A DNA stretch of 64,000 nucleotides from Sphingomonas sp. (GTDB taxonomy: Bacteria > Pseudomonadota > Alphaproteobacteria > Sphingomonadales > Sphingomonadaceae), in NCBI RefSeq assembly GCF_017304615.1, contig NZ_JAFKLZ010000001.1, positions 1,533,957-1,597,956 on the forward strand. Reading direction: 5' to 3'. The notes under the pieces are model-generated. The model saw only the letters and a list, made by a program, of their open reading frames with translations, was not told the DNA's origin and searched no databases. Shown piece after piece: positions 45,354 to 50,298 of the stretch; position 1 is the first letter of the stretch, and the number at the start of each line of letters is the position of its first letter. The position numbers were made by a program, and so were the translations under genes.

Positions 45354-46142
45354 TCAGGCGAACCGGACGCGCGCGCCGACCGTGGCGCGGCGGCGCATGG
45401 CGTAGCCCATGCCGCCAAAGCCGAGCATCATCATCGCCCAGGTCGCCGGCTCAGGTACGCCAGCCGTCGCCGCCTGCGTGGTGAACTGCACCACGGGCAC
45501 GCTGTAGAGCTGCGTGTACGTCCCCAACGGGTTGATGTTGGACGCGCTGTCTACCCCGCCAGCGCTATACGGCGTGCCGTCGAGCGTCGTGGTGACCGTA
45601 TTCGACGTAACGTAGCTCAGCGTCAGCAACAGGTTTCCGCCGGTGTAGGTGAACGGCGTCGTGAAATTGATCGTGTAGAACGGGTTAGGCGTCGGCGTCG
45701 GGCTAGCCTGGAATGGCTGTGAGACCAGCGAACCGACCGGAATCGTCAGAGCGCCAGTGCGAACGACGGCGGTGCCAGCAGCCTGATTGGCGGCGAAATT
45801 GGTGGTCAAGTTGCCGACCGCCTGCGTCGAACCGCCCAGGCTGATCTGGTAGTTGGAATAGTTCAGGGCAGAGACCGGGGCCAGGCTGTTGACGTTGATC
45901 CGGAAACCGATCGCAGTGATGACGCTTCCGATCGGCAGGTCGCCGAGTTGCGCCGTGCTGAACAGAAATTGCGAGGTGACGTTGGTGGCGCTGCCATTGC
46001 CCAACGGGATCGAGGTGGACCCCACCCCCTCGGTCGTGGCGCTGCCGCCGGCGACATAGGTCGACTGGGCCGATGCGCTGTTGACGCAAGCGGCAATTGA
46101 AATAGCAGCCAATGCAGCCTTGGCCGCGAACTTGAATTGCAT
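45354..46142 (-). CDS. PEPxxWA-CTERM sorting-domain secreted protein
   Basis: 262 aa. Signal peptide at residues 1-25 (ending NSASAQ), a Thr/Ser/Asn-rich beta-type body, then the sorting signal VPEPATWAMMMLGFGGMGYA followed by MRRRATVGAR. The PEPxxWA form is typical of sphingomonads and other proteobacteria that use an exosortase (EpsH/XrtA type) and is usually linked to exopolysaccharide. No exosortase gene is in the window. Upstream ribosome site AGGGGAAC supports the start. Confidence 0.9.
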   Translation of the reverse strand: MQFKFAAKAALAAISIAACVNSASAQSTYVAGGSATTEGVGSTSIPLGNGSATNVTSQFLFSTAQLGDLPIGSVITAIGFRINVNSLAPVSALNYSNYQISLGGSTQAVGNLTTNFAANQAAGTAVVRTGALTIPVGSLVSQPFQASPTPTPNPFYTINFTTPFTYTGGNLLLTLSYVTSNTVTTTLDGTPYSAGGVDSASNINPLGTYTQLYSVPVVQFTTQAATAGVPEPATWAMMMLGFGGMGYAMRRRATVGARVRFA

Positions 46143-46657: not shown

Positions 46658-47689
46658 TCAGCCGCCGAACGGCCCGCATTCCCCGTCGCGCACACCGCTG
46701 ACGCTGCCGACGCCGAGCACGATCTTGGCGCGCCGCTCGAACGCCAAAGCCTGCCAGCGCCCCGAATTGCCGATCGCCGTACGGCTTCTGAGGAAGGTCA
46801 GGCTCATCAGTTCGTATTGCTCGGGATCGACCCGTCCGGCGTCGATCAGGCAGTTCCATGCCGCAACGTTCCAGGGCGCATCGCGCGACACGCCGTCCTG
46901 ATCGATCGTCCGCGCGATCGCGCCGTACCAGTCGATGATCGCGCGCAACCGCGGCCAGCGATCGGCCTCGGACATCGCCGCCAGCTTGGCGCGGAGCCGC
47001 GCAATGTCCTCATCCCCCGGCAGGAACCCCTGCTGCACCCGCGTATCGATCGCCCAGCGCACCTTGCGCGGCGTCATCGGCCCGTTCGGAAAGACACGCA
47101 GCAGGTCTAGCCGCACTTGATCGAGCAACGCGACATAAGCGTCCGTCTGCACCTGAAGCATCGCATCGTTTTCGAACAGAGCGGTCAGTTCCGCGGCGAG
47201 CACGGGGTTAAGCCGCCCCTTGTCATCCTCCGCCGCCAGGATCGCCGCACGACACTTATCGGCCACCGGCACTGCCCGGCAATCCTTCGAAAACAGCAGC
47301 TTGCCATAGGTTGGCGCCACGGCGTCACGCATGCGCCTGAAATCGCGTTTATGCCGGAACTGCTTGCGCCAAGCGGTCAGCACCGGTTGCAGGCTGCCCG
47401 TCCCCAAATTCCACTGCGCCATCCCGACCGAGATTAGCTGGCTGTCGAAATTGCCCGTCGGCATCGCCCAGCAACCCATCGTCTCCGGTATCGACGTCTC
47501 CGCCATTCGCGCAAAAACGCCGACGCGATCGAGTCCGATTTCGGCGAGGCGGACTGCAGCATCCGGGGCAATACGGATGGAGGGCACGTCACCGACCCGG
47601 CGGCAATCTGGAGGCGCCGTCTGTGCATGCGCCGACGCCGCGAACAGCGTGGACGCCCCAAGCACCAGCATTGCGAAACCCCGCGGCAT
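46658..47689 (-). CDS. Secreted protein resembling lysozyme-like/chitosanase-type muramidases
   Basis: 343 aa with a signal peptide (about residues 1-22, ending SAHAQ). The stretch NFDSQLISVGMAQWNLGTGS near residues 80-99, with a preceding Glu, resembles the active-site loop of proteins annotated as peptidoglycan-binding or lysozyme-like; this is recognition from memory, not a search. Five cysteines including C71, C133-C145 and one near the C-terminus may form disulfides. Role in cell-wall turnover is inferred. It diverges from the Nudix-DUF47 gene with 18 bases between starts. Confidence 0.6.
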   Translation of the reverse strand: MPRGFAMLVLGASTLFAASAHAQTAPPDCRRVGDVPSIRIAPDAAVRLAEIGLDRVGVFARMAETSIPETMGCWAMPTGNFDSQLISVGMAQWNLGTGSLQPVLTAWRKQFRHKRDFRRMRDAVAPTYGKLLFSKDCRAVPVADKCRAAILAAEDDKGRLNPVLAAELTALFENDAMLQVQTDAYVALLDQVRLDLLRVFPNGPMTPRKVRWAIDTRVQQGFLPGDEDIARLRAKLAAMSEADRWPRLRAIIDWYGAIARTIDQDGVSRDAPWNVAAWNCLIDAGRVDPEQYELMSLTFLRSRTAIGNSGRWQALAFERRAKIVLGVGSVSGVRDGECGPFGG

Positions 47690-47707
47690 ACCGCTAGTTT
47701 CACAGGA

Positions 47708-48913
47708 GTGTCACAATCAAGCAATAGAGGCTCGGATGCCGCGCCGCCCGCTATCGGGGGATTTTCGGAGCGCGTCCCGGGGAGCCGTTTCATTCGTCAG
47801 ATCGCCGCCTTGCCGTATCGGGTCGACGGGCCGTCGATCGACGCGCCCGTCCGGGTGCTGTTGATCACCAGTCGCGAGAACAAGCGATGGGTGATCCCCA
47901 AAGGCAACCCCACGCCCGGCATGGCGATTCACGCCGCCGCCGCCCTGGAGGCCGACGAGGAAGCGGGCGTGCGCGGCCTGGTGTGTCCGACGCCGCTAGG
48001 CTCGTACCGCTACCGCAAGCGCCAGCGCAACGGCGCTTCGTTGATGGTCGACGTCGATGTCTTTCCGCTCTCGGTCAATCGAGAGTTGGATAATTGGAAG
48101 GAACAGGCGGAGCGCGAGCGCCGCTGGGTCTCGCTGTCGGAAGCCGCCGAGATGGTCGAGGAGCCGGATCTCGCCGATCTCATCCGGTCGTTCGGCCCGA
48201 CCGAATTCAAAGCCGCGACCAAGCGGCTCGGCGTGATCGCCGCCACCCAATCGAGGATCAGTCCTATGTTCGCCTGGTTTCAGCGCCTCTTGCCCAAGCA
48301 GGGCAATTTCTTCGAGATGTTCGAGGCGCATGCGGTCACAATCGTCAGCGCCGCGGACGCGATGGCGCGGCTCGTCGCCGGAGAGGGCGGCACGGTGAAC
48401 GACCATGTCCGCGAAGTGATCGAACGCGAACACGATGCCGACAACATCACGCGCGAGGTGCTGAAGACCGTCCGCGAAACCTTCCTGACGCCGTTCGATC
48501 GCAGCGCGATTACCGCGCTGATCGGATCGATGGACGACACGATCGACGAAATGCAGGCCGCTGTGCTCGCGATGGACCTTTATGAGGTCAGGGATTTCGA
48601 TCAGGAAATGAAGGACATGGCGGCGATCATCGTCGATGCCGCACGACTGACGGCGGAAGCGATGCCGCTGCTGCGCGATGTCGGCCGCAACGGCGCCCGG
48701 CTTCACGAATTGACCGAGCGGCTGGTGCGGATGGAAAGCCATGCGGACGAAATCCACCGCGCGGGGTTGAAGCGCGCCTTCACGCAATATGGCCCCAAGG
48801 ATCCGATGCGTTTCTCCGTCGCGCGCGAGATATTCAAGCATCTCGAGCGGATCGTCGACGCGTTCGAGGATGTCGCCAACGAGATCGACGACATCGTAAT
48901 CGATCACGCCTGA
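47708..48913 (+). CDS. Nudix domain fused in frame to DUF47 (PhoU-like) domain
   Basis: 401 aa from the GTG at 47708, the first plausible start after the divergent gene. Residues about 30-180 are a Nudix domain of the diphosphoinositol/diadenosine polyphosphate type: KRWVIPKGNPTPGMAIHAAA then ALEADEEAGV. In the box Glu, Glu-Glu and Gly are kept, but the usual Arg before the first Glu is Leu. From MFAWFQRLLPKQGNFFEMFE (codon 48266) the protein continues as DUF47, the PhoU-like partner of phosphate transporters. There is no stop codon between the two parts. A ribosome site precedes the internal ATG, so a free 215-aa DUF47 protein may also be made. pit follows 15 bases downstream. Confidence 0.8.
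   Translation: MSQSSNRGSDAAPPAIGGFSERVPGSRFIRQIAALPYRVDGPSIDAPVRVLLITSRENKRWVIPKGNPTPGMAIHAAAALEADEEAGVRGLVCPTPLGSYRYRKRQRNGASLMVDVDVFPLSVNRELDNWKEQAERERRWVSLSEAAEMVEEPDLADLIRSFGPTEFKAATKRLGVIAATQSRISPMFAWFQRLLPKQGNFFEMFEAHAVTIVSAADAMARLVAGEGGTVNDHVREVIEREHDADNITREVLKTVRETFLTPFDRSAITALIGSMDDTIDEMQAAVLAMDLYEVRDFDQEMKDMAAIIVDAARLTAEAMPLLRDVGRNGARLHELTERLVRMESHADEIHRAGLKRAFTQYGPKDPMRFSVAREIFKHLERIVDAFEDVANEIDDIVIDHA
48253..48268 (+). promoter_or_regulatory. Internal ribosome-binding site and ATG for the DUF47 part
   Basis: GAGGA at 48253-48257 lies 8 bases before the ATG at 48266 inside the Nudix-DUF47 reading frame. Translation from here gives a 215-aa protein of normal DUF47 length, so this site decides whether the two domains are made fused, separately or both. 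Confidence 0.5.
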
Positions 48914-48928
48914 TCGATCGCTCACCAC

Positions 48929-49942
48929 ATGCACGAACTCGCCCTCCCCCTGCTGATCGGCCTGATCTTGGTCGCGCTGGCGTTCGATTTCCTGAACGGC
49001 CTGCACGACGCGGCGAACTCGATCGCCACGGTCGTATCGACTCGGCTGCTCAAGCCCGTTCACGCGGTCCTGTTCGCCGGCGTATTCAACTTCGCGGCCT
49101 ATTTCCTGACGCTCGCCTTCCCCGCCTTGCACAAGGTTGCAGAAACGATGGGTAAGGGATTGATCGATAAGAACTTGGTGACACCCGGTGTTGTGTTCGG
49201 CGCGCTTGGCGGGGCGATGTTCTGGAACGTCATCACTTGGCTGAAGGGCATTCCGTCATCCTCCAGCCATGCTTTGGTCGGCGGAGTGATCGGCGCGGGC
49301 GTGGCACATGCCGGCTTCGGCGCGATTCAGTGGGGCGGGCTCAACAAGACATTGCTGTTCATCGTCCTGTCGCCGCTGATCGGCATGGCGGTGTCGATGT
49401 TCGTCATGCTGGTGAGCAGCTGGCTGTTCAGGAGCGCCACCACCAAGACATCCGAACGAAGTTTCCGTTTCCTGCACTTGCTGTCCTCCGCCGCCTTTTC
49501 GCTAAGTCACGGCCTCAACGACGCGCAGAAGACGATGGGCATCATCACCGTTCTGTTGTTTTCGACCGGCCACCTGGCGGGCAAGTTCGAGATTCCGCAC
49601 TGGGTCGCGATCAGCTGCTACCTCGCAATGGGGCTCGGTACGCTGTCGGGTGGGTGGAAGATCATCGAGACGATGGGCAGCCGCATCACCAAGCTGTCGC
49701 AGCATCAGGGGTTCAGCGCGTCGCTCGGCGGGTCGATCACCATCTTCGGCGCGAGCCTGCTCGGCATCCCGGTATCGACCACTCATACCATAACCGGCAG
49801 CGTGATCGGAGCCGGCGTCGCGCGGCGTGCGTCGGCGGTGCGCTGGGGCGTGGCGCAGAACGTCGTGATCGCGTGGATTATCACCATCCCCGCCAGCGCC
49901 GCCGTGGGCGCGATGTTCTACCTGCTCACGCGCATCTTCTAG
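48929..49942 (+). CDS. pit: Inorganic phosphate transporter, Pit family
   Basis: 337 aa inner-membrane carrier for metal-phosphate symport with about ten hydrophobic helices. The duplicated PHO4 signatures are present: FDFLNGLHDAANSIATVVST near residues 21-40 and SHGLNDAQKTMGIITVLLFS in the second half, along with GIPSSSSHALVGGVIGAG and GIPVSTTHTITGSVIGAG. It starts 15 bases after the Nudix-DUF47 gene. DUF47 partners are commonly encoded next to Pit and are thought to adjust its activity. Confidence 0.95.
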   Translation: MHELALPLLIGLILVALAFDFLNGLHDAANSIATVVSTRLLKPVHAVLFAGVFNFAAYFLTLAFPALHKVAETMGKGLIDKNLVTPGVVFGALGGAMFWNVITWLKGIPSSSSHALVGGVIGAGVAHAGFGAIQWGGLNKTLLFIVLSPLIGMAVSMFVMLVSSWLFRSATTKTSERSFRFLHLLSSAAFSLSHGLNDAQKTMGIITVLLFSTGHLAGKFEIPHWVAISCYLAMGLGTLSGGWKIIETMGSRITKLSQHQGFSASLGGSITIFGASLLGIPVSTTHTITGSVIGAGVARRASAVRWGVAQNVVIAWIITIPASAAVGAMFYLLTRIF

Positions 49943-49989
49943 CCGGCGAACGGCATCGCAGCGCTCCTTTTCCGCGACGCCCGAATGCC

Positions 49990-50298
49990 TCAAGACAATT
50001 TCGCGACCAGGTGATCAAACACCGCCGGGTGTAGCGGATGGTTGAACTTGCAGCCGACCACGTCGCGATTGCGCCACATGACGGTCGCCTCCAGCCCCTG
50101 CAATCCCGGTATCGTCAACCACACGATCGCGCCCGGATCGAGCGAAGGATGCGCTTCCGCCTGGAAACCGGTGGTCGACAGGTTGACCAGGTGTACGTGA
50201 AACTTGTTCGACCGTCGGTCGCGCAGCATTGCCGCCGTGCGGAAGGGCGCGCGGCGGCGACTTCGATTGTCCCCCCCGGCGTCGTCAGGCTCAGTCAC
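49990..50298 (-). CDS. PilZ-domain protein
   Basis: 102 aa from a GTG at 50298. The c-di-GMP-binding signature is present: RRRAPFR (RxxxR) at residues 14-20 and NLSTTGF ([D/N]xSxxG) near residue 39. The remaining strands (PGAIVWLTIPGLQGLEATVM) fill a single PilZ domain, so this is a stand-alone PilZ protein. A GGDEF/EAL protein is encoded at 53980-55662. The 184 bases 50299-50482 hold no feature I recognise. Confidence 0.9.
   Translation of the reverse strand: MTEPDDAGGDNRSRRRAPFRTAAMLRDRRSNKFHVHLVNLSTTGFQAEAHPSLDPGAIVWLTIPGLQGLEATVMWRNRDVVGCKFNHPLHPAVFDHLVAKLS

Follow-up and report, generated by a model that had tools for sequence, protein, structure and literature searches.

A Nudix-DUF47 fusion gene ahead of pit in sphingomonads probably starts at AUU and may give two products

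The gene that directly precedes the phosphate transporter gene pit in Sphingomonas sp. joins a Nudix hydrolase domain to a DUF47 domain, which raises the questions of where its translation begins, how many proteins it gives and what they would do at the transporter. An earlier note on the 64,000-nucleotide stretch of DNA analysed here (the window) had the Nudix domain running without a stop into DUF47, with pit 15 bases further on, and the reading frame and the Pfam profiles confirm this. The stop-free frame 47627..48913 (+) in the open reading frame list carries both domains, matched by PF00293 (Nudix; E 1.1e-7, 32.3 bits against a cut-off of 21.1) and PF01865 (DUF47/PhoU_div; E 2.5e-37), and pit (PF01384; E 1.1e-91) starts 15 nt past the stop (Table 1). 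The DUF47 domain is identified by both the PF01865 match and a PhoU-like helical fold; the window protein stays below the equivalog cut-off of TIGR00153, a DUF47 subfamily (50.3 bits vs 104.3). Since DUF47 immediately precedes pit and shares its strand, the layout is that of a Pap-Pit operon. Coupling to an upstream gene was rejected because the neighbouring ORF in the window, 46658..47689, is divergent. A search for a sigma-70-like promoter over 47600..50000 gave no match. Upstream of the locus, ORF 45354-46142 (-) carries a PEP-CTERM sorting motif (PF07589).

Table 1 Features of the Nudix-DUF47-pit locus, in positions of the window
Feature	Position	Strand	Basis
Proposed long form, Nudix-DUF47 CDS including stop, 373 aa	47792..48913	+	Start from 125-locus comparison; domains from Pfam
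ATT, proposed long-form start codon	47792..47794	+	Codon-1 counts and substitution switch
GGGGAG, Shine-Dalgarno-like, 7 nt ahead of ATT	47779..47784	+	SD energy across loci
Nudix domain, DIPP-like, residues 1-135	47792..48196	+	
Nudix box G38-V60 with E53, E56, E57	47903..47971	+	Glu conservation in fused domains
Flexible linker, residues 138-155	48203..48256	+	pLDDT <50 (model mean 90.5)
GAGGA, Shine-Dalgarno-like, ahead of the internal DUF47 start	48253..48257	+	Position and signal across loci
Putative short form, DUF47 alone from ATG 48266-48268, including stop, 215 aa	48266..48913	+	Met conservation, GC3, AAA
pit, inorganic phosphate transporter, 337 aa	48929..49942	+	PF01384

The fusion is real and not an assembly artefact. 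The same domain order was found in other sphingomonads: among 397 Sphingomonadaceae genomes, 154 gave some match, 122 a full-span match and 20 a DUF47 match without a joined Nudix domain, the last two figures being hand counts of the search-match rows. In the window's own genome and 40 relatives, the match ran across both domains in 9 of the 41 (the own genome among them), was confined to DUF47 in 8 and was absent from 24. Identity of the fusion to the window copy falls to 46-50%. In a scan of species genomes, 54 of 60 loci were full-span, with fused genes in Sphingomonas, Sphingosinicella, Stakelama, Croceibacterium, Chakrabartia, Sandaracinobacteroides and several metagenome bins. An assembly error or a missed stop at the junction was rejected because 139 of the 207 loci compared read through; 55 others have DUF47 without a fused Nudix domain and 13 have Nudix without DUF47, proportions that are not frequencies since the loci, repeats included, were mostly picked for a match to the query. 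The stop flagged in six full-span rows of the 397-genome search (G313, G363, G279, G123, G411 and G391) does not separate the two domains, each of the six having its Nudix and DUF47 profile matches in a single stop-free frame. Exact de-duplication reduced the 139 fused loci to 126 distinct ones, which are related and still include near-copies; 125 of these could be anchored for the analysis of the start (L182, without an anchor, was dropped). One full-span locus among the 122, L189 (G283), has its frame broken inside DUF47, by decay or a sequencing error. In the family member L165, the two genes lie apart with a stop and a new ATG between them.

In a FastTree tree of the DUF47 domain (162 rows, 120 fused and 42 unfused), the fused label needs at least four changes, three of them forced by well-supported branches. 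We read this tree as pointing to an old fusion that was later lost in some lineages. No decayed Nudix domain was detected ahead of the free DUF47 genes, the 900 nt upstream of 42 loci giving no profile hit at E <5. Outside the sphingomonad family, a class search of 385 genomes found the fusion in three genomes of a single genus of another order (L107 in G472, L108 in G695 and L109 in G599). These three genes, 62-65% identical, keep ATT or ATC at codon 1 and, since they are nested among sphingomonads in the DUF47 tree, were probably transferred. Among the matches listed for 299 genomes of the phylum, none outside the family was full-span, and phyla beyond Pseudomonadota were covered by short peptide patterns only. 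A plasmid search gave 530 records, of which one covers at least 80% of the query, and it is unfused. On plasmid NZ_CP053711.1 of Lichenicola cladoniae (L277), a Nudix gene is followed by a DUF47 gene annotated in two pieces, near transposases; the pair may be an unfused version in decay. In a fold search among viruses, the significant rows were all ordinary Nudix matches.

The strict Nudix box is G-x5-E-x7-R-E-U-x-E-E-x-G-U. The window protein departs from it in having Met instead of Glu at position 7 and Leu in place of Arg, and it keeps E53, E56, E57 and both glycines; its membership rests on profile and fold. The Leu had been taken earlier as a possible sign of altered activity, an idea that we rejected: this residue is ordinary in the family (Leu in 29 and Arg in 14 of 122 fused domains), and the three catalytic Glu positions are kept (Glu in 122/122, Glu in 119 with Asp in 3, and Glu in 122/122). 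The first Glu of G-x5-E is replaced by Leu or Met in 86 of the 122. The typing as DIPP-like has stood, DIPP and DDP1 being the closest proteins in sequence and fold. The PDB hydrolases DIPP, DDP1, Ndx1 and MutT1 provide the best sequence and structure matches and share with the window protein the fold and the catalytic Glu of the Nudix box; the latter differs in being bacterial, fused to DUF47 and devoid of the first Glu of G-x5-E. The predicted structure has a mean pLDDT of 90.5 and a pTM of 0.82. The structure alignment excluded L103, L104 and L189 and drew on 81 of 123 usable proteins after filtering to <88% identity.

An inositol pyrophosphate, one of the phosphate-rich signals that had been suggested, is not supported, and we judge it an unlikely substrate: the window's genome gave no match to an IPK-family kinase, and according to PMC5389931 no use of PP-InsP5 is known in bacteria or archaea. 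Polyphosphate or ApnA is the likelier predicted substrate, for these two reasons and because the genome has a polyphosphate kinase (PPK) match and DDP1 is described as cleaving polyphosphates and dinucleotides as well (PMC8064635).

The connection of this Nudix subfamily with Pit was assessed by gene linkage. In an even sample of 106 genomes of the class, PF01384 was matched in 37, and the 40 regions around the matches (674,274 bases in total, some cut by contig ends) contained 11 Nudix profile hits, all of them fused to DUF47 or adjoining pit or DUF47 with at most 384 nt between profile edges; part of the training set of the profile consists of loci found again in these regions, and the adjacent hits L211, L218, L221 and L234 lie outside that set. 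No Nudix profile hit lay away from pit and DUF47 in these regions. Once the two fused loci, one of them that of the window, are set aside, an unfused Nudix gene stood beside pit in 9 of 38 regions. Gene orders vary and include Nudix-pit without DUF47, DUF47-pit-Nudix, unfused Nudix-DUF47-pit, and convergent and divergent arrangements. Other alphaproteobacterial families have the order DUF47-pit-Nudix (L197, L198, L199 and L200) or Nudix-pit (L123, L124, L129 and L135), and the coordinates in the phylum search revealed at least four more unfused DUF47-Nudix neighbours (G1086, G1181, G1157 and G1145). The subfamily is not confined to the neighbourhood of pit, as six Nudix relatives have no pit within 1.5 kb. 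The link to Pit drawn in the earlier note appears to be borne out by this linkage, the subfamily being found beside pit also when unfused. It might be argued that the Nudix domain serves housekeeping NTP or ApnA pools and was joined solely so as to be co-expressed with pit, with no part in regulation, and Ap6A and Ap4A hydrolases and MutT1 are indeed among the closest folds. However, the place of the subfamily beside pit in several families and orientations, even without DUF47, and its physical joining to a Pit accessory domain make this explanation unlikely.

The internal ribosome site that had been proposed for free DUF47, GAGGA at 48253-48257, is followed by ATG 48266, and the comparison of loci upholds the proposal: the ATG carries an initiation signature and the gene could give two products. 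The DUF47 start codon is ATG in 115 of the 126 fused loci (in 117 of 125 when slightly shifted positions are counted). Lysine codons just before it are AAA in 86 and AAG in 58 cases, as against 163 AAA and 1107 AAG elsewhere, and GC3 in this stretch is 0.55-0.59 vs 0.83 elsewhere. The energy of the internal Shine-Dalgarno (SD) pairing is -5.9 vs -4.4 for synonymous shuffles, whereas 1147 other Met codons gave -2.7 vs -3.1 expected; locus by locus, the internal SD is stronger than its own synonymous expectation in only 64%. RNA structure at the site is ordinary (z -0.31). Among the 42 loci with DUF47 and no Nudix domain, which include repeats and five that could not be anchored, 30 have ATG and 4 have GTG at this position, and the SD energy is -6.6.

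If the fusion, started at AUU, were the sole product, the internal ATG would be the retained first Met of DUF47 and the GAGGA a leftover ribosome site. Eight of 125 loci have indeed lost the ATG, with none within three codons, so not every locus needs the short form, and their SD is little changed (-5.45 vs -5.73 where the ATG is kept), as if the motif persisted for other reasons. On the other hand, the AAA-rich codons of low GC3 and the SD ahead of the ATG hold across loci down to about 50% identity, and GC3 is higher where the ATG is lost (0.73 vs 0.56, on 8 loci only). We therefore consider a single product improbable and prefer initiation at ATG 48266 as well. Loss of the internal ATG is somewhat commoner in loci with a canonical first start (4 of 24 vs 4 of 101; Fisher p 0.044, a test that ignores relatedness). 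Three of the eight loci carry ATC and one ATT instead; in L175, L176 and L178 the codon is ATC, ATC and ATT, respectively, GAAAGG is kept ahead of it, and these are perhaps non-canonical internal starts.

As to the long form, the start previously placed at GTG 47708 is probably wrong, since the comparison of loci places it at ATT 47792 (AUU in the message). Codon 1, which precedes the conserved R-Q-I-A-A-L-P-Y-R, is ATT in 69, ATC in 36 and ATA in 3 of the 125 loci, the remainder being ATG (12), GTG (2), CTG, GCG and AAG (1 each). Later Ile codons in the same genes are ATC 2394, ATT 228 and ATA 50 times; relative to these, ATT is heavily over-used at codon 1. Codon 4, where it encodes Ile, is also rich in ATT (ATC 71, ATT 38, ATA 3), so a part of the excess is a trait of early codons. 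A FastTree tree built without codon 1 requires no fewer than 10 switches of the canonical or non-canonical state and 30 of the codon class, which argues against one inherited accident. ATG accounts for only 12 of the 120 ATN codons at this position, in GC-rich genes, and we take this to suggest that a weak start is favoured. No ATG, GTG or TTG is present at codon 1 or up to five codons upstream in 101 of the 125 loci, nor anywhere from the upstream stop through codon 15 in 23 of the 108 with ATT, ATC or ATA. The remaining 24 of 125 do have a canonical codon at or within five codons upstream of codon 1, in some cases upstream and without an SD, so the weak start is not universal.

The strongest evidence for a start at codon 1 is the boundary in the substitution pattern, which points to coding from this codon onward. 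Rates at the three codon positions are flat before it (0.623/0.611/0.592 at -30..-1; 436 pairs from all 125 loci), drop to 0.023/0/0.438 at codon 1 and are 0.048/0.006/0.308 over codons 2-10 and 0.206/0.159/0.427 over the following ten. The 101 strict loci (381 pairs; 0.713/0.732/0.718 at -60..-31) show the same switch; in this subset the absence of substitutions from the first and second base of codon 1 is a product of locus selection, and the 125-locus set repeats the result. GC content by codon phase likewise shows a coding pattern from codon 1 onward and none upstream. Gaps in the early coding part are probably alignment artefacts (22 of 23 are not multiples of three), and gap lengths were therefore left out of the analysis. 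SD energy averages -6.56 ahead of codon 1 (n=125), whereas upstream windows average -2.02 (n=1125) and the sites ahead of other Ile codons -2.64 (n=2622); positions -12 to -9 are G-rich in base frequencies, and simple SD motifs are absent in 18 of 125 loci. A conserved near-cognate codon thus lies at the coding boundary with an SD, as in starts of the infC type. None of 200 shuffles folds as poorly as the RNA of the ATT region, which might fit an open initiation site. A start further into the frame would cut the protein fold, given that the first strand of the predicted structure spans residues 2-11 and that the alignment with DIPP structures begins at model residue 1.

The same approach was applied to genes with expected starts. 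For pit of the same loci, 91 of the 122 that could be anchored have a canonical codon (ATG in 85) at a single fixed position and 20 more have one a codon before it, with a switch from a flat 0.696/0.626/0.670 to a codon-like 0.162/0.018/0.420; on a lenient count, all 122 have a canonical codon somewhere in a 24-codon stretch. The SD energy of pit is weak (-2.3), so SD strength by itself is no start marker here. Of 24 distinct unfused Nudix loci (30 rows less 6 repeats), all but L234 have a canonical codon no more than 20 codons ahead of the conserved part, and fused loci have one at or up to 20 codons upstream of codon 1 in 44 of 125, although the presence of such a codon is no proof of its use. 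Of 29 sphingomonad infC loci (L248-L276), 15 could be parsed; 14 of these have ATA or ATC where the start is expected, and only 2 are without any canonical option. A long-form start at a canonical codon further upstream (in the window, GTG 47708 or ATG 47627), with the ATT an ordinary Ile codon, is very improbable: such a canonical codon occurs within 12 codons upstream in 21 of 125 loci and only farther upstream in 27, but no codon pattern is seen upstream in substitutions or GC, 63 of the 108 ATT, ATC or ATA loci have no in-frame ATG, GTG or TTG upstream at all, and ATG 47627 falls inside the divergent ORF.

The start of infC is under IF3 proofreading, and E. coli pcnB reportedly also has an AUU start. 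A long form translated from AUU or AUC with a good SD should likewise be initiated weakly and be subject to IF3 proofreading. We propose that, in one sphingomonad gene ahead of pit, a DIPP-like Nudix hydrolase is joined through a flexible linker to DUF47 as the Pit accessory protein, and that a second, ordinary in-frame AUG would give free DUF47. The weak AUU start would make Nudix-DUF47 scarce and plain DUF47 more abundant; the scarce form would take hydrolase activity to the DUF47-Pit complex and remove a phosphate-rich molecule there, most likely a short polyphosphate or a dinucleoside polyphosphate, so that phosphate uptake might be tuned. That both starts are used and that the weak one keeps Nudix-DUF47 scarce relative to DUF47 at Pit seems to us reasonably probable. 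We hold more tentatively, and with somewhat less than even confidence, that AUU or AUC has been kept across a large clade so that IF3 proofreading and the internal AUG fix the ratio of Nudix-armed to plain DUF47 on Pit, linking the state of initiation to phosphate import. The ratio of long to short form might be set by the same logic as in Streptomyces sigR, where an IF3-repressed non-canonical start is described as setting the ratio of two partners in one operon (PMC5472188).

Operons of the pap-pit (DUF47-Pit) type are described in Sinorhizobium meliloti and, as pap-pitH1, in Streptomyces (PMC7866108; the DUF47 label is that of PMC8269224). There too the DUF47 gene stands directly before pit, with which it is co-transcribed in those bacteria; DUF47 is alone in the operons as described, whereas the sphingomonad DUF47 bears an N-terminal Nudix domain. 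The nearest prior observation is the Streptomyces supercluster with a separate nudA (PMC7866108), in which a Nudix gene is likewise tied to phosphate uptake and polyphosphate genes, but as a gene of its own, several genes off and, in the arrangement given there, unfused to DUF47. Regarding the start, infC begins with ATT in E. coli and ATC in Streptomyces, and Streptomyces sigR with an IF3-repressed GTC (PMC5472188); in S. aureus, cvfC1 starts with AUU and infC and ccpN with AUA (PMC13009471). The sphingomonad case resembles these in its near-cognate codon with an SD, and cvfC1 and sigR, as reported, also in conservation across a genus; it concerns another gene and, unlike the cases as described, adds an in-frame internal AUG that could give two forms. 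No description of the fusion or of its start was found in the open-access literature searched, nor were papers combining a Nudix hydrolase with the Pit family and PhoU, or Sphingomonas with an AUU start or initiation codon. PMC12210691 was rejected as a report on DUF47 and Nudix since the domain in its text is DUF4743.

Very few non-canonical start codons have been characterised, according to PMC5472188. If our reading is true, the sphingomonad gene would place such a start in nutrient transport, in about 100 distinct loci, and gene callers limited to ATG, GTG and TTG would presumably put the beginning of Nudix-DUF47 in the wrong place. DUF47, a long-known but ill-understood partner of Pit, would gain a concrete, putatively enzymatic companion, and the occurrence of the Nudix subfamily beside pit even when unfused would make the control of Pit directly testable.
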